A stretch of DNA of 64,000 bases from Salinirubellus salinus. Lineage in GTDB: Archaea; Halobacteriota; Halobacteria; Halobacteriales; Haloarculaceae. The stretch lies in the NCBI RefSeq assembly GCF_025231485.1, contig NZ_CP104003.1:682001-746000 (forward strand), read 5' to 3'. The position numbers and the translations under genes are program-made. Each line of letters begins with the position of its first letter. Positions within the stretch are counted from its first letter, which is position 1. The notes under the pieces are model-generated. The model had not been told where the DNA came from. It worked only from the letters and a program-made list of their open reading frames with translations, and did no database searches. Positions 4,832-44,794 of the stretch are shown here, piece by piece.

Positions 4832-4982
4832 ACCGGGATGGGAGTGTGGGGGAGTGAAAAGCCACCGACAATGCGGGCGACTGGAGATGGAGTGCGGGCG
4901 GTGCTGTGCGGTCCAGTGCTCTCACCCGCTACGAGCGCCGCAGACGCGAGTGGCGCAGTCGTGGTTCAGTTTCCGTGACGAG

Positions 4983-5005
4983 GGGTGCCCGCTCCGCGGG
5001 CACCC
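4983..5005. repeat. Perfect 10-bp hairpin with TCC/GGA triloop
   Basis: GGGTGCCCGC, then TCC, then GCGGGCACCC: a perfect 10-bp stem with a 3-nt loop, 20 nt beyond the stop of the leftward mscS gene. Read on the mscS strand, the apex is GC-GGA-GC. No U-run follows it in the direction of mscS transcription, so it is not a classic intrinsic terminator. It shares its apex with the hairpins near 16.5 kb and 44.6 kb. Confidence 0.8.
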
Positions 5006-5024
5006 GAGGAAGGAGAACTGGTGG

Positions 5025-5954
5025 CTAGTCGTCGTCGGCTCTGACCCCGACCAGTTCGGCCGGCGCGGCGATGGAGACGTCGCCCGAGAGGTCCCGCTGC
5101 GGGAAGGGGATCTCGATGCCCTCGGCGTCGAACCGCTGTTTCACGTTCTTGACGTACTCCGCGCGGGTGCGGACCCAGTCGGCCCGCGAGGGGTTGGCGA
5201 TCCAGATGCGCGACTGGAGGCCGACGTAGGAGTCGGCGAGTTCGGTCAGGCGCACGCTGGGTGCCGGGTCGTCGAGTATCTCGTCGTGCTGCTCCGCCTC
5301 CTCCACGATGATGTCCGTGGCCGTGTCGATATCGTCGTCGTAGCCGATGCCGAAGACGAACTTCAGCCGGAGCTTGTCCTTCGCGACGGGGTTCTTGATG
5401 ACGCCGTCGGTGAGCTGGCTGTTCGGGACGGTGAGCAGTTCGTTGTCGAACGTCCGCACGCGGGAGACGCGCAGGGAGATGTCCTCGACGATGCCGGCGT
5501 TGCCGTCCCACTCGATCCAGTCGCCGATGCGGAACGGTTTGTCGGTGTAGATGAACACGCCCGCGACGAAGTTCTTGAGGACGTCCTGCATCGCGAAGCC
5601 GATGGCGAGGGTGGCCGCGGCGGCGACGGTGGCGAGCGACTGGAGGAAGTTCCCGAAGCCGGCGAGGCCGAACGCCGCGGAGATGGCGACGAAGACCACG
5701 ATGATGCTGACGATGCGTCGGAGCGGGCGCCGGGCGTGTTCGTCGAGGTCACGACGTTCGAGGACTCGATCGAAGAGCGGGGAGATCAGCGCCTTCCCGG
5801 CCGCGTAGATGACGACGAACGCGACGAGGAAGACCACGGCGGCGGCGATGGCGTCGGCGATGCCCGGAGGTACCCCGATGCCGTTCAGGAACTCCGCGAC
5901 GGTGTCCACCAGCGTGATGGCGTTCTGTAACGGGACGGGCGTGGGCGGGTTCAT
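5025..5954 (-). CDS. mscS: Small-conductance mechanosensitive channel, MscS family
   Basis: 309 residues. MscS channels open under membrane tension to release solutes at hypo-osmotic shock. Three N-terminal hydrophobic segments end in the pore helix, ATVAAAATLAIGFAMQDVLKN, with the Gly/Ala-rich packing typical of TM3. It is followed by the beta domain signature FRIGDWIEWDGNAGIVEDIS and VPNSQLTDGVIKN, then an alpha/beta C-terminal domain. Length is normal. Its ATG overlaps the stop of the upstream YhbY-like gene by 4 nt, so it is the last gene of the rnp4-YhbY-mscS operon. A 10-bp hairpin follows its stop. Confidence 0.93.
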   Translation of the reverse strand: MNPPTPVPLQNAITLVDTVAEFLNGIGVPPGIADAIAAAVVFLVAFVVIYAAGKALISPLFDRVLERRDLDEHARRPLRRIVSIIVVFVAISAAFGLAGFGNFLQSLATVAAAATLAIGFAMQDVLKNFVAGVFIYTDKPFRIGDWIEWDGNAGIVEDISLRVSRVRTFDNELLTVPNSQLTDGVIKNPVAKDKLRLKFVFGIGYDDDIDTATDIIVEEAEQHDEILDDPAPSVRLTELADSYVGLQSRIWIANPSRADWVRTRAEYVKNVKQRFDAEGIEIPFPQRDLSGDVSIAAPAELVGVRADDD

Positions 5955-16141: not shown

Positions 16142-16495
16142 ATGTGCATGATGCTCATCCGCGGTCACGCCGGTGGGACGGCGCTGACGGGGACGCTGTA
16201 CGAACGTGGCGAGGAGCCACCGGCGTTCAAGGGGGCGCCCGACGAGGGCGCGCCGTACGTCTGGGTCTGCGACGCCTTCTACGAGGTCGAGAGCGGCGGC
16301 CAGCCCCAGACCATCGGCGACCGCGAACTCAACGTGGCGTTCGAGACGCCGATGCCCCGTGGGTTCGACACCCGCGACGCTGCCGTCGAGGCGGCCAAGG
16401 AACACCTTCGCACCCAGTTCGCCCGCGTGGGCGTCGCGGAGAGCGAGGTGGAGATAGAGGTCATCAAACGAGAACCGGGCGTGGAACAGGGGTAA
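16142..16495 (+). CDS. Small conserved haloarchaeal protein (DUF7113-like)
   Basis: 117 residues starting MCMMLIRGHAGGT; the ATG at 16151 is an alternative start. The first ATG is favoured because TATA-like CCTTATCC sits about 26 nt before it. Soluble, mixed alpha/beta: TALTGTLYERGEEPPAFKG, YVWVCDAFYEVESGGQ, GFDTRDAAVEAAKEHLRTQF. I believe it corresponds to DUF7113; no function known. It sits on the opposite strand between nurA and herA, convergent with nurA. Two GAGCGGAGCGA-core hairpins occupy the 117 nt between its stop and the nurA stop. Confidence 0.82.
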   Translation: MCMMLIRGHAGGTALTGTLYERGEEPPAFKGAPDEGAPYVWVCDAFYEVESGGQPQTIGDRELNVAFETPMPRGFDTRDAAVEAAKEHLRTQFARVGVAESEVEIEVIKREPGVEQG

Positions 16496-16523
16496 AGCGT
16501 CGCGACGTGCCGGTGCACTCACC

Positions 16524-16546
16524 CGCCGCGAGCGGAGCGAGCGGCG
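16524..16546. repeat. GAGCGGAGCGA-core hairpin, copy 1
   Basis: Arms CGCCGC and GCGGCG (6 bp, perfect) flank the 11-nt centre GAGCGGAGCGA. The centre can fold as two G-A/A-G mismatches, two GC pairs and a GGA triloop. It is followed by TTTT four bases later. Lies between convergent stops. Confidence 0.85.
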
Positions 16547-16574
16547 CGTTTTGATACTAAAGTTGTGCCGGAGC

Positions 16575-16599
16575 GGTTCGCGAGCGGAGCGAGCGAACC
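16575..16599. repeat. GAGCGGAGCGA-core hairpin, copy 2
   Basis: Arms GGTTCGC and GCGAACC (7 bp, perfect) flank the same 11-nt centre GAGCGGAGCGA as copy 1, 28 bp away. The arms differ completely from copy 1 yet remain self-complementary, which is what selection for the fold would give. Confidence 0.85.
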
Positions 16600-16612
16600 C
16601 GACGCGAAAAGT

Positions 16613-17875
16613 TCAGAGGTCGAAGCCGGCACCCACGCCCCACCGCTCGTCGTCGTACGTCGTGTCCATGTCGGCGTCGAGCGCGTCCTCCAGCGCCCGC
16701 CGGAGCGCCACCGTCTCCTTCCGCGATATCGAGGCCAGCGAGTCGGCCTTCGCCACCGCCGCGGGCGGCCCGCGGGCCGTCGCCACGTCCTTCAGCACCT
16801 GCATCGTCAGCTCCTCGCGCCGGTCCTCGTCCTCGGTGAACGCGCGCGGTGCCTCGACCCGGTAGACAGTGTCGGTCCGGGGGTCGTACACCATGCAGAA
16901 GGTGACCTCGTACCGCTCGGGTTCGAAAGCGAGCGTGAGGTCGTACCGCCCCTCGGCCATCGCCCGGTCGGCCGGGCCGCGGGAGACGAACCAGTTGGTG
17001 AACGTCAGGGCGTCCTCGTGGCGTTCGTAGTGGCCCTCGGCGTCCCACGCCCCGCGTTCGAGCACCTGCGAGAAGAACGCGGCATCGTTGACCCACGGCG
17101 CCGACCCCTGCTTCTCGCGGATGGTGCGCGTGACCAGCCCCGTCATCGGCGTCTTGACGAACCCGAGGACGGGCACGTCACGGCGCATGAACGACTCGAC
17201 GAGCTGGACGTACTCGCCGATGACCTCGCGGGGGGTCCGCTCGCCAGCCAGCAGGTCGGCGAGTTCGCGGTTGCGGTTCTCCCACGTCAGCAGCCCCTTC
17301 GGGTAGATGGGGCCGTCCATCACGAGCAGGTCGTCGACGAGTTCGGCCTGCCCGCGGGCGTGTTCGACCTCCGCGAGGTAGAGGGCGAGTTCGTGGACCA
17401 CGGGCGTGACCGAGCGGTCCGCGCGGGGGACGTGCAACACGCGACTCTTGACGTAGCCCTCGTCGTCCACCTGCCAGTCCTGGCCGAAGTGGACCGTCGC
17501 CTCGTTGGAGTGGACGGCCTTCACGATGGTCCGACAGCGGTGCAGGTCGAGGTCCGAGGGGACGGCCGACATCGCGGCGACGGCCACGTCGACCGTGAGG
17601 CCGTTCTTGAACGTCGTCGGGTTGATGGTGCCCGAGTCGAGCCCGTGCTGGGTGGGGAAGTAGTCCTCGCCGAGGGCGGCGTCCTCGACGTCCACCTTCC
17701 GGCGGCGCAACTCACCCATCGGCTCCAGCAGGGTCCGTCCGTCCGCGACGAGCGGGTCGAGGAACTCCTCCCAGACCACCTCCGCGAACTCCCGGTGCTC
17801 GCGTTCGTCCACCTCGTGACTGATGCTCCCGGCCAGTCGGGTGATGGCCTTGAAGTGCACCGGGTCCAGCGTCAT
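16613..17875 (-). CDS. nurA: NurA 5'-3' nuclease
   Basis: 420 residues. NurA forms a dimer that sits on the HerA ring and degrades the 5' strand at double-strand breaks. The RNase H-like core has candidate metal-binding Asp residues at D96 (LTVDVAVAAMSA) and D187 (DLLVMDGPIYPKG), the latter in the typical family context. PVLGFVKTPMTG and the end region KADSLASISRKETVALRRAL also fit. The start MTLDPVHFKAITRLAG at 17875 is preceded by a TATA-like GTTTTT near 17900, about 27 nt upstream. The partner gene herA follows on the same strand after DUF7113. Mre11 and Rad50 are not in the window. Confidence 0.87.
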   Translation of the reverse strand: MTLDPVHFKAITRLAGSISHEVDEREHREFAEVVWEEFLDPLVADGRTLLEPMGELRRRKVDVEDAALGEDYFPTQHGLDSGTINPTTFKNGLTVDVAVAAMSAVPSDLDLHRCRTIVKAVHSNEATVHFGQDWQVDDEGYVKSRVLHVPRADRSVTPVVHELALYLAEVEHARGQAELVDDLLVMDGPIYPKGLLTWENRNRELADLLAGERTPREVIGEYVQLVESFMRRDVPVLGFVKTPMTGLVTRTIREKQGSAPWVNDAAFFSQVLERGAWDAEGHYERHEDALTFTNWFVSRGPADRAMAEGRYDLTLAFEPERYEVTFCMVYDPRTDTVYRVEAPRAFTEDEDRREELTMQVLKDVATARGPPAAVAKADSLASISRKETVALRRALEDALDADMDTTYDDERWGVGAGFDL

Positions 17876-32033: not shown

Positions 32034-33839
32034 CGAGACGGCCAATATCACCACGAGCACACCCAGCATCGCCATGGTCAGGCCGATAGCGACCCACTCC
32101 GCCCGCTCGGCTGGGTCGGGCCACCCCTGTCGCTCGCCGAGCGCCGCGACGCCCGACCGGACCAGCCGCCCACCGTCGAGCGGGTAGGCGGGGATGCAGT
32201 TGAACGCCGCGAGCTGGATCTGGAGCCACGCCGACCAGAACAGCGCGTTGGCGAGGACGAACGCGCCGTCGCCGAGCGGTGCGAGCACCCCCGAGACGAC
32301 GAACGCCTCGCGTGCCGTGCCGACGAACCCGGCGAACCCGAACGGGGCGAGACCCACCACGCCCGCGAGCGGCAGGAGGAGGAACGCGAACCCGCGCTGG
32401 AGGGGGCCGTCGGCCGCCCCCGGCAGGCCCGCCCCCCTGAGCGCGCCGTGATAGGTGTCTGCTGGGTACGGTTCGACCCCGAAGTCGGTCAGGACGAGTC
32501 CCGAGACGCCGGGTTCGGGGAAGATACCGAGTATCGGGTCGGACTCACCGCTCGCTTCCGAGGGCTCCCTTCGGTCGCCCTCCCCACCGAGCGTCAGCTC
32601 GAACGTGTCGAGGTCGCCCTCCTCGAACGCCTCGACGGTGACCGTCTCACCGGGCTGGCGGTCGGCGAGCGCCCGCCCGAGGTCCGCACGGTCCAGCACG
32701 CGCTCGCCGGCGACGCGGACGAGGACGACTCGCCCGTCCGGCGCGGCACCCGCCTCGTCGAGTGGGCCGTCGGGCGCGACTCGACCCGCCAGCCCCGGCT
32801 TCAGTGCGTAGCCGCCCGGACTGCCGTCGGGCGCCTCGAGGGTCAGTTCCGCTCGGCGGTCGTCCGCGAGCGCCTCGCGGAACGCCGCCACCGTCGAGAC
32901 GTTCCGGCCGTCGACGGCGAGGATACGGACGCCCGGTTCGAGGTCGCTCGCCTCGCTCGTCGCGACGACCGTGACGCTCCGCTCGACGGTGACTGCCGGG
33001 GCGTCGCGCCGTCCGACGCGGACGGTCCCGGAGGCGTTCGCCAGCGCCGCGTGCAGCGAGTCGTCGTCTCCGACTGCCCGTCCACCGAGGCTCGTCAGCA
33101 CGTCGCCGCGCTCGAGGCCGGCGTCGGCTGCCGGAGAGTCGGCGAACACGCCACCGACAGCGACACCCGCGACGGGCGCGACGCTCCCGAGCACCACGAG
33201 GAGTGCGAGGAAGCAGACGCCGGCACCGACGAGGTTCGCCGCGGGGCCGGCGGCGTAGAGCCGCGCCCAGCCGAGGCGGTGGCCGCGCTCGTGGTCACTG
33301 TCGGCCTCGTCACCGCCGTCCAGACCTGCCGGCAGGACGTACGCGCCGGCGGGGACTACCGCGAGGAGGAACAGGCCGACGGACTCCACCTCGATGTCGC
33401 CGGCACGCGCGAGGACGCCGTGGGCGCCCTCGTGGACCACCAGGCCGAGCAGGACGCCGAACAGGAGTTCCGGCGCTGCCGCCAGCGGCAGGAACGGGTT
33501 GACGCCGGGGACGACCAGCACGCTCCCCGGTGACTCGATGGGGCTGCTGGCGGGGTCGAGGACGGCCGCGACGCCCGCGAGGACGACGCCGACGGCGGCG
33601 AGGACGACCAGTCCAGCGACGATGGCGAGACCGGCCGTCCCGAGGAGCCGCCAGAGCCAGCGGGGTCGAGCGACCCGGTCGAGCAGCGTCCGCCCGCGGG
33701 TCGAGGAGAGCGTGAGGAACGGGCCGGTGGCCGAGACGCCGGGAGGGAGGCGCTCGCTCCGATCGAGGAGTTCGGCGACGACACCGAACACGAGGAGGCC
33801 GAGGAGGACCGCAACCGCCGGCGAGTCGTGGAGGGACAC
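32022..33839 (-). CDS. Site-2 protease-like metalloprotease (M50) with PDZ domains
   Basis: 605 residues, intramembrane zinc protease of the M50/S2P family. The zinc motif is VVHEGAHG with HEGAH at 136-140, inside a helix. The second signature, PAYPLDGGRLVRSGV, is near residue 565. Between them are PDZ-like regions (VAVGGVFADSPAADAGLERGDV and a second one at ASDLEPGVRILAVDGRNV). At least eight hydrophobic helices are visible. S2P enzymes release membrane-tethered regulators; no substrate is evident next to it. It may be the last gene of a leftward run starting near 38170. Confidence 0.88.
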   Translation of the reverse strand: MSLHDSPAVAVLLGLLVFGVVAELLDRSERLPPGVSATGPFLTLSSTRGRTLLDRVARPRWLWRLLGTAGLAIVAGLVVLAAVGVVLAGVAAVLDPASSPIESPGSVLVVPGVNPFLPLAAAPELLFGVLLGLVVHEGAHGVLARAGDIEVESVGLFLLAVVPAGAYVLPAGLDGGDEADSDHERGHRLGWARLYAAGPAANLVGAGVCFLALLVVLGSVAPVAGVAVGGVFADSPAADAGLERGDVLTSLGGRAVGDDDSLHAALANASGTVRVGRRDAPAVTVERSVTVVATSEASDLEPGVRILAVDGRNVSTVAAFREALADDRRAELTLEAPDGSPGGYALKPGLAGRVAPDGPLDEAGAAPDGRVVLVRVAGERVLDRADLGRALADRQPGETVTVEAFEEGDLDTFELTLGGEGDRREPSEASGESDPILGIFPEPGVSGLVLTDFGVEPYPADTYHGALRGAGLPGAADGPLQRGFAFLLLPLAGVVGLAPFGFAGFVGTAREAFVVSGVLAPLGDGAFVLANALFWSAWLQIQLAAFNCIPAYPLDGGRLVRSGVAALGERQGWPDPAERAEWVAIGLTMAMLGVLVVILAVSLLL

Positions 33840-43603: not shown

Positions 43604-44521
43604 ATGGTATCCGAACTGTTCGACCCGGACCGCTGGGAGGCGGTCGACGCGTTCGACTTCCGCGACCTGACCTACCACCGCGCGACCGACGTGGGTGCCG
43701 TCCGAATCGCCTTCGACCGGCCCGAGGTCCGCAACGCCTTCCGGCCCGAGACGGTCGACGAACTCTACGTCGCGCTCGACCACGCGAAGCGACAGACGGA
43801 CGTGGGGTGTGTCCTCCTCACCGGCAACGGCCCCTCGCCCAAGGACGGCGGGTGGGCGTTCTGTTCCGGCGGCGACCAGCGCGTTCGTGGCGACGCGGGC
43901 TACGAGTACGAGGACAGCGCGGAGCCGAGCGAGGACGAGACCGAACGAGAGAAGCGTGCCCGACAGGCCCCGCGACTCCACATCCTCGAGGTCCAGCGGC
44001 TCATCCGGACCATCCCGAAGCCCGTCGTCTGCGTCGCGCCCGGCTGGGCCGTCGGCGGCGGTCACTCGCTCCACGTCGTCTGCGACATGACGCTCGCGAG
44101 CGAGGAGCACGCGAAGTTCCTCCAGACGGACCCCGACGTCGCCAGCTACGACGCCGGCTACGGGAGCGCCTACCTCGCCCGGCAGATCGGTCAGAAGAAG
44201 GCCCGCGAGGTGTTCTTCCTCGGTAAGACCTACTCCGCCGATGAGGCCGTCGAGATGGGGATGGCCAACGAGGCCGTCCCCCACGAGGAACTGGAGACAG
44301 TCGCACTCGACTGGGCCGAGCGCATCACGTCCAAGTCACCGATGGCCATCCGGATGCTCAAGTACGCGTTCAACGCCGTCGACGACGGGATGATGGGCCA
44401 GCAGGTGTTCGCGGGCGAGGCGACCCGACTCGGCTACATGACCGACGAGGCGAAGGAGGGCAGAGACGCGTTCGTGGAGGGGCGGGAGCCGGAGTTCCAG
44501 CGGTTCCCCTGGCACTACTAG
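43604..44521 (+). CDS. menB: 1,4-dihydroxy-2-naphthoyl-CoA synthase
   Basis: 305 residues. Closes the second ring of the naphthoquinone in menaquinone synthesis, from o-succinylbenzoyl-CoA. Crotonase fold: FDRPEVRNAFRPETVDELYV, VLLTGNGPSPKDGGWAFCSGGDQ (oxyanion-hole Gly region), KPVVCVAPGWAVGGGHSLHV and the MenB-specific DVASYDAGYGSAYLARQIGQ. The end ReEPEFQRFPWHY is typical. ATG at 43604 has TATA-like GCTTTTGTC about 25-30 nt upstream. A cluster of hairpins follows its stop. Confidence 0.96.
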   Translation: MVSELFDPDRWEAVDAFDFRDLTYHRATDVGAVRIAFDRPEVRNAFRPETVDELYVALDHAKRQTDVGCVLLTGNGPSPKDGGWAFCSGGDQRVRGDAGYEYEDSAEPSEDETEREKRARQAPRLHILEVQRLIRTIPKPVVCVAPGWAVGGGHSLHVVCDMTLASEEHAKFLQTDPDVASYDAGYGSAYLARQIGQKKAREVFFLGKTYSADEAVEMGMANEAVPHEELETVALDWAERITSKSPMAIRMLKYAFNAVDDGMMGQQVFAGEATRLGYMTDEAKEGRDAFVEGREPEFQRFPWHY

Positions 44522-44545
44522 GCGACCAACCTTTTCTCGTCGGGT

Positions 44546-44674
44546 GCGCCTTCGGCGCGAAGCGCTCTCTGCTCGCGGGCGCTGCGCGCCCGCTCGCATG
44601 GTGCGTGGTGGCGGAGCCACCACGCTACTCGAAAACTCTGGATGCAGAAGGCGGCGCTCGCTCCGCTCGCGCCG
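44546..44674. repeat. Cluster of five short hairpins between menB and the SDR gene
   Basis: Five inverted repeats with 3-nt loops or the 11-nt centre: 44546-44558 (GCGCC-TTC-GGCGC); 44555-44565 (GCGC-GAA-GCGC, overlapping the first); 44575-44593 (8-bp GCGGGCGC-TGC-GCGCCCGC); 44603-44625 (10-bp GCGTGGTGGC-GGA-GCCACCACGC); and 44652-44674 (6-bp arms CGGCGC/GCGCCG around TCGCTCCGCTC, the reverse complement of GAGCGGAGCGA). On one strand each loop is of GNA type. The stretch 44522-44794 has no convincing gene. Confidence 0.85.
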
Positions 44675-44794
44675 GGTGAGCGCTGTGGACGTTCCAGCAC
44701 CGCCCCGCTCTGCCCCGCACCGCTACCGCCCAGCACCACCCTCCAGACTGGCCGCTTGGGAAACACGGATACGGCGTCCGGGACTCCTCACCCT

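Follow-up and report, generated by a model that had tools for sequence, protein, structure and literature searches.

The stretch analyzed here, hereafter the window, comprises 64 kb of the Salinirubellus salinus genome and contains a pair of hairpins between two convergent genes, which a sequence-only reading had singled out. The flanking genes encode a DUF7113 protein (PF23425; 16148-16495, plus strand) and a NurA-domain protein (PF09376; 16613-17875, minus strand), whose ends at 16495 and 16613 face each other. As had been described, the hairpins lie on the plus strand at 16524-16546 (CGCCGC-GAGCGGAGCGA-GCGGCG) and 16575-16599 (GGTTCGC-GAGCGGAGCGA-GCGAACC), 28 bp apart, and a third one (CGGCGC-GAGCGGAGCGA-GCGCCG) is found on the opposite strand at 44652-44674. 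The core GAGCGGAGCGA is thus present three times in the window, while shuffled windows carry it 0.20 times on average and never three times. The coordinates of the pair were correct, but its extent was not: both hairpins are parts of one composite element, reaching from about 16503 to 16631 and including T-tracts and a long outer stem, which the sequence-only reading had missed.

This composite scores 101.4 bits (E 7.8e-23) against R1, a covariance model built from 20 copies, this one among them. Along its GA strand, here the plus strand, hairpin 1 (16524-16546) has 6-bp arms, a tandem GA/GA and a GC-GGA-GC interior, and it is followed by a T-tract (TTTT, 16549-16552) that is CTTTTTC in most other genera. 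The left part of the outer stem (16557-16561) pairs with the right part (16612-16616) with one A-C mismatch in alignment A1, and the right part overlaps the minus-strand NurA stop codon (16613-16615). At the base of hairpin 2, a GAG (16571-16573) forms a tandem G-A with 16601-16602, beyond which come a G-C pair and a bulge of 1 nt; this conserved tandem-GA base had also gone unnoticed. Hairpin 2 itself (16575-16599) has 7-bp arms and likewise a tandem GA/GNA center. An opposite-direction T-tract (16607-16610, TTTTC on the minus strand) starts 2 nt behind the NurA stop codon. The RNA folds predicted for hairpins 1 and 2 reach -13.6 and -13.3 kcal/mol on the plus strand and -11.5 and -11.2 kcal/mol on the minus strand, respectively, and the GA strand is therefore favored by a predicted 2.1 kcal/mol per hairpin.

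R1 finds two further composites in the window. One (4906-5034, plus strand, 87.6 bits) extends to the stop of a gene on the minus strand, and its hairpin 1 has a 5-bp inner helix and a GCA loop. The other (44512-44695, minus strand, 57 bits) follows the stop (44521) of an enoyl-CoA hydratase-family gene on the plus strand and has the hairpin at 44652-44674 as its hairpin 1; that this third hairpin belongs to the same composite family had been overlooked. At the gathering threshold, the only Rfam match in the window was an archaeal SRP RNA gene (RF01857, 4177-4487), which the composite at 4906 follows after about 420 bp, and the composite itself matched no family.

Hairpins of this type were counted in sampled stretches of the 4.38-Mb genome, 464 kb and then 1.26 Mb (about 29% of the genome). 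In the 464 kb, with arms of at least 6 bp, 11-nt centers of the GA..GA type numbered 20, while AG..AG centers numbered 1 and second-order Markov sequence gave 4, and no other center length gave a comparable excess. The stricter form GA-2bp-GNA-2bp-GA, with G-U pairs allowed and arms of at least 6 bp, was found 15 times and its reversed form never. When only Watson-Crick pairs were accepted and any triloop was allowed, GA/GA reached 14 in the same 464 kb and all other 2x2 mismatch types 2 or fewer, except TC/TC, whose score consists of GA/GA hairpins read on the opposite strand. An origin by chance or composition was rejected on the basis of these reversed and Markov controls. The bare 13-nt GAGCGGAGCGAGC shows no excess in this genome (14 versus 17 for the reversed string) and was rejected as the signal; it is the structured form and the wider core CGAGCGNAGCGAG (95 against 43) that are in excess.

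In the 1.26 Mb, 28 GA/GNA hairpins with arms of at least 5 bp were found, of which 23 lie outside genes, at about 21 times the intragenic density. Neither of the conditions named as refuting the sequence-only reading was thus borne out: the structured form exceeds its controls, and it is far from equally common in coding regions. A C-G pair adjoins the GA in 25 of the 28. The GGA triloop proposed from the sequence is one variant, as the loops are GAA (16), GGA (7), GCA (3) and GTA (2). Arms of GA hairpins are up to 12 bp long and nearly all distinct. Some GA hairpins stand alone, with no T-tract and in mixed contexts, such as GAGGGC-GACCGAAGGGA-GCCCTC, which lies within a gene on the minus strand of the window (32560-32582). 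The hairpin motif is thus found apart from the composite. Three stand-alone hairpins (L017:19498, L021:18948 and L049:1402) lie about 40 bp upstream of predicted starts, near the expected promoter position, and have the GA strand in antisense orientation to these genes.

Since the flanks of GA hairpins can be aligned with one another, the unit is larger than a single hairpin. A profile search of the own-genome stretches found 31 copies of a composite of about 110 bp in 1.26 Mb; in the control comparison, the profile gave 32 matches versus none in reversed and none in Markov sequence. The ends of the composite, judged by eye, show weak mutual similarity, and no empty site was near enough in sequence to fix its borders. 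On the GA strand, the order is hairpin 1, T-tract, left half of the outer stem (which includes a second T-tract), GAG, hairpin 2, A-tract and right half of the outer stem, which reaches or overlaps the opposite-strand gene's stop codon. The outer stem encloses hairpin 2 and is closed by pairing between the T-tract and the A-tract. Hairpin 1 has outer arms of about 6 bp, a tandem GA/GA at a fixed place (kept at its two positions in 18 and 19 of the 20 own copies) and an inner helix of 2-6 bp, usually with a GNA triloop. At the base of hairpin 2, GAG faces CGA through G-A pairs with a 1-nt bulge, and columns 81-112 and 82-111 are G-A/A-G in 18/20 and 20/20 copies. The invariant columns of A1 are GAG..G and CCCG, and the arms are variable.

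Two further features were seen in these alignments. In many A1/A2 composites (for example L047, L023 and 16503-16631 of the window), the T/A-tract pairing and the outer arm are separated by a conserved G-G mismatch, which may reflect a constraint on sequence rather than on pairing. Several copies from genus g5 (L163, L196, L203, L207, L251 and L252) carry, upstream of hairpin 1, an extra hairpin with the GAGCGGT..ACCCG base motif seen in hairpin 2.

The sequence-only reading had proposed a defined fold, and covariation in two alignments strongly supports one that has tandem G-A mismatches and a triloop of the C-GNA-G type. In A1, which was not fitted to a model, 89% of cells are paired across the 20 own copies, and 75 cells are changed on both sides, compared with 22.9 after shuffling and at most 19 for slid structures. 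Among 34 distinct copies, mostly from other genera, there are 197 double changes versus 61.2 shuffled and at most 34 slid; this alignment, having been fitted to the model, is biased in its favor. The tandem GA is retained in 30 of 34 distinct foreign copies. These comparisons strongly support the composite as a conserved and selected fold, which may act as RNA or as single-stranded DNA. Wobble pairs, which could tell the strands apart, gave a mixed answer overall: G-U exceeds A-C by 16 to 3 in the model-fitted alignment and by 7 to 0 in unique own-genome hairpins, favoring RNA of the GA strand, and the counts at other loci are 11 and 8. Minimum free energy folding of the whole 16503-16631 composite did not separate it from shuffles, because the two hairpins are able to pair with each other. 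A kink-turn (a 3-nt bulge beside a tandem G-A) was rejected at both sites, as the loop of hairpin 1 is a symmetric 2x2 and, at the base of hairpin 2, the bulge is 1 nt long and separated from the tandem G-A by one pair.

The enrichment at convergent 3' ends was borne out. With genes called by a custom codon-usage script and not by curated annotation, 13 of 30 own copies lie between convergent genes (background 63/563, p 8e-6) and a single one between divergent genes (background 202/563, p 3e-5). The remaining 16 copies lie between codirectional genes (background 298), 13 with the TC strand and 3 with the GA strand as sense. A TC-strand stop is adjacent in 24/31 own copies, compared with 18% under random placement (p 1e-12). 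At foreign loci, a manual count gave 16 of 29 convergent and none divergent. Runs of at least four Ts within 60 nt of the stop are present in 13 of the 23 element-bearing TC genes, versus 47/386 and 9/124 of other genes. Copies from other genera mostly have CTTTTTC behind hairpin 1, and their opposite-direction tract is mostly TTTTTC, with TTTTC also seen. A T-tract ending in C close behind the stop, as in the T5C signal, is found on the TC side and is weak on the own GA side. In many copies, hairpin 1 read on the GA strand is a GC-rich hairpin followed directly by a T-run; hairpin 2 read on the TC strand is not.

Taken together, the fold retained among copies, their T-tracts and their position at gene ends suggest a module that would end transcription from both sides. 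Several observations speak against such a terminator. T4 is absent in 10 of the 23 TC-side own copies, and among the 8 own genes on the GA side, only 1 has a run of at least four Ts in the 60 nt behind its stop. Unlike in an intrinsic terminator, the T-tract on the TC strand comes before hairpin 2, and the RNA of that strand would carry weaker U-C mismatches. Also, 13 of the 16 codirectional pairs have the GA strand as antisense, and most such genes would therefore never make the more stable RNA form; the stand-alone hairpins are likewise left unexplained by termination. It is unlikely, in our judgment, that the composite is instead a 3'-UTR element for stability or processing, protecting transcripts from the exosome or offering an endonuclease site with no role in termination. 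Its place behind stops and its RNA-like conserved fold would suit this role, but the stable strand is antisense in most own codirectional copies and the T-tract enrichment points to termination.

The history of individual copies was examined by comparing relatives. By inspection, none of 22 relatives with the NurA gene carries the element behind it; this copy thus either arose in the S. salinus lineage or has been lost from others. Orthologous copies from another genus, whose flanks are 81% identical, differ little from each other, one difference being a compensatory C-G to T-A change in hairpin 2. In the orthologs L204 and L163, hairpin 1 has been replaced whole while the T-tract, hairpin 2 and A-tract are identical. 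At most of the sites compared, two close strains carry nearly identical copies, and 19 of 25 element loci of strain G059 align to an element-bearing locus of its close relative G114. Six tandem copies with a period of 154 bp are present at L157 (G059), as opposed to one at L187 of the near-identical G114. This array difference is a possible typing marker, and duplicate arrays also exist in L152 and L153. In the riboflavin synthase gene of S. salinus and a few related lineages, an in-frame insertion of about 50-60 nt with two GA-type hairpins (ASEASGGSSYERSEYDG, L031:3104-3158) also occurs in L213, L217 and L222 and in a shorter form in L226; most relatives lack it, and it was seen in 4-5 of the lineages read and in none of the others. 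A twin-hairpin stretch of about 55 nt within the composite of L261 (about 1050-1110) is absent from L266 of a close strain. Extra twin-hairpin stretches of this kind lie between the two T-tracts in L261, L250 and L253.

The presence or absence of twin hairpins, the tandem arrays and the insertions in genes indicate that some mechanism spreads or rebuilds these palindromes. One candidate is mutation alone: self-primed fold-back copying at GNA mini-hairpins would rewrite one arm and mimic covariation. Arms are often perfect and arbitrary, as this predicts, and hairpin 1 of L204/L163 was swapped whole between identical neighbors. We nevertheless consider this highly improbable, as it leaves unexplained why the T-tracts are conserved, why there is a second tandem-GA site with a bulge, why the spacing is fixed and why the copies sit at gene ends. 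Moreover, the left arm in riboflavin synthase is new sequence that does not derive from the old flank, and the single C-G to T-A change suggests that compensatory changes arise one at a time and not in runs.

The live rival is a REP/BIME-like mobile palindrome copied as single-stranded DNA, to which we give a real but clearly minor chance. A transposase or replication enzyme would then act on the folded GA strand, and the location at gene ends would reflect tolerance, with some copies co-opted. About 30 copies in 1.26 Mb, the in-frame GA hairpins inside genes such as riboflavin synthase, the L261/L266 difference, the six-copy array and the orthologous NurA gene ends lacking the element all agree with mobility. 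Copies nonetheless diverge strongly in sequence while keeping their structure, most occupy the same site in close strains (the 19/25 loci above), and tolerance fails to explain the strict orientation relative to stops and the avoidance of divergent regions.

The covariance model matches 97 of 116 Halobacteria genomes, representing 42 of 46 genera (E 0.01 or better). In a phylum-wide sample of 197 genomes, matches (E 1e-4) were confined to 23 genomes of the same order; it should be noted that the non-haloarchaeal genomes in this contrast were not GC-matched, and composition may contribute to it. A search with the consensus gave no match that would indicate a phage source. Four plasmid matches (H1-H4) are partial copies in intergenic gaps and did not sharpen the relation to stop codons. 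No earlier description was found under haloarchaeal REP, MITE, tandem G-A or bidirectional terminators, and the core string led to unrelated papers only, in searches mostly outside subscription journals.

Among the roles proposed by the sequence-only reading, whose interpretation of the hairpin pair is partly supported, a transcript end fits best. We consider it reasonably probable, judging from sequence comparisons, that the composite is a module of haloarchaeal 3' ends at which transcription arriving from either side stops. Archaeal termination is known to involve U-tracts and aCPSF1/FttA, and RNA structure is usually deemed unimportant in it. On the GA strand, the layout would be plus-strand gene stop, hairpin 1, CTTTTTC, outer stem with TTTTTG, hairpin 2, AAAAAGG and minus-strand gene stop. 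A polymerase transcribing the GA strand would make hairpin 1, kept compact by the tandem sheared G-A and the GNA triloop, and would immediately meet a U-tract, with the second U-tract and the hairpin 2 stem beyond. A polymerase on the TC strand would meet TTTTC about 2-20 nt past the stop codon and then the hairpin 2 palindrome. Release at the U-tracts, possibly with aCPSF1/FttA cleavage, would leave short 3' UTRs and block convergent read-through. That transcripts end at the composite, that the G-A pairs are sheared and have a role there, and that any protein takes part are points we infer.

Termination and REP-like mobility can both hold. It is conceivable, although we would not bet on it, that a self-spreading twin-hairpin palindrome, folding on its GA strand by way of tandem sheared G-A pairs and inserting at stops, has been domesticated across haloarchaea as a ready-made bidirectional terminator. 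If so, the gene ends of haloarchaeal genomes would be built in part by a domesticated mobile palindrome, and the composite would show a short palindrome spreading while its sequence changes and its fold does not. With a covarying module at gene ends, models of the Haloferax type would also allow a direct test of whether RNA or DNA folding has a part in archaeal termination, and annotators would gain a model for marking transcript ends.

The hairpin center combines what we take to be two known motifs, the d(GCGNAGC) mini-hairpin and the CGAG tandem sheared G-A. Unlike these motifs alone, it forms part of a genomic element whose arms vary, and its stability is predicted. REP/BIME sequences (GTAG-/CGTC-tagged, PMC3733652) are likewise dispersed short extragenic palindromes, often paired and in tandem arrays. 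The composite differs from them in conserving structure over sequence and in having no fixed stem sequence; neither GTAG nor CGTC is invariant among the conserved columns of A1. In Haloferax volcanii, the T5C motif gives 95% termination in vivo, and hairpins lie upstream of 503 end sites, one tested hairpin giving 59% termination (PMC7237163). The composite shares with this signal TTTTTC at gene ends and hairpins that are sometimes upstream of the end; however, T5C is a short motif with no defined fold, whereas the composite is a two-hairpin module that covaries, contains tandem G-A pairs and has a T-tract for each direction. Finally, like bacterial bidirectional intrinsic terminators, it places a GC-rich hairpin between convergent genes with T-runs in both directions, but its T-run precedes hairpin 2 both ways, its internal mismatches are conserved and the polymerase is archaeal.
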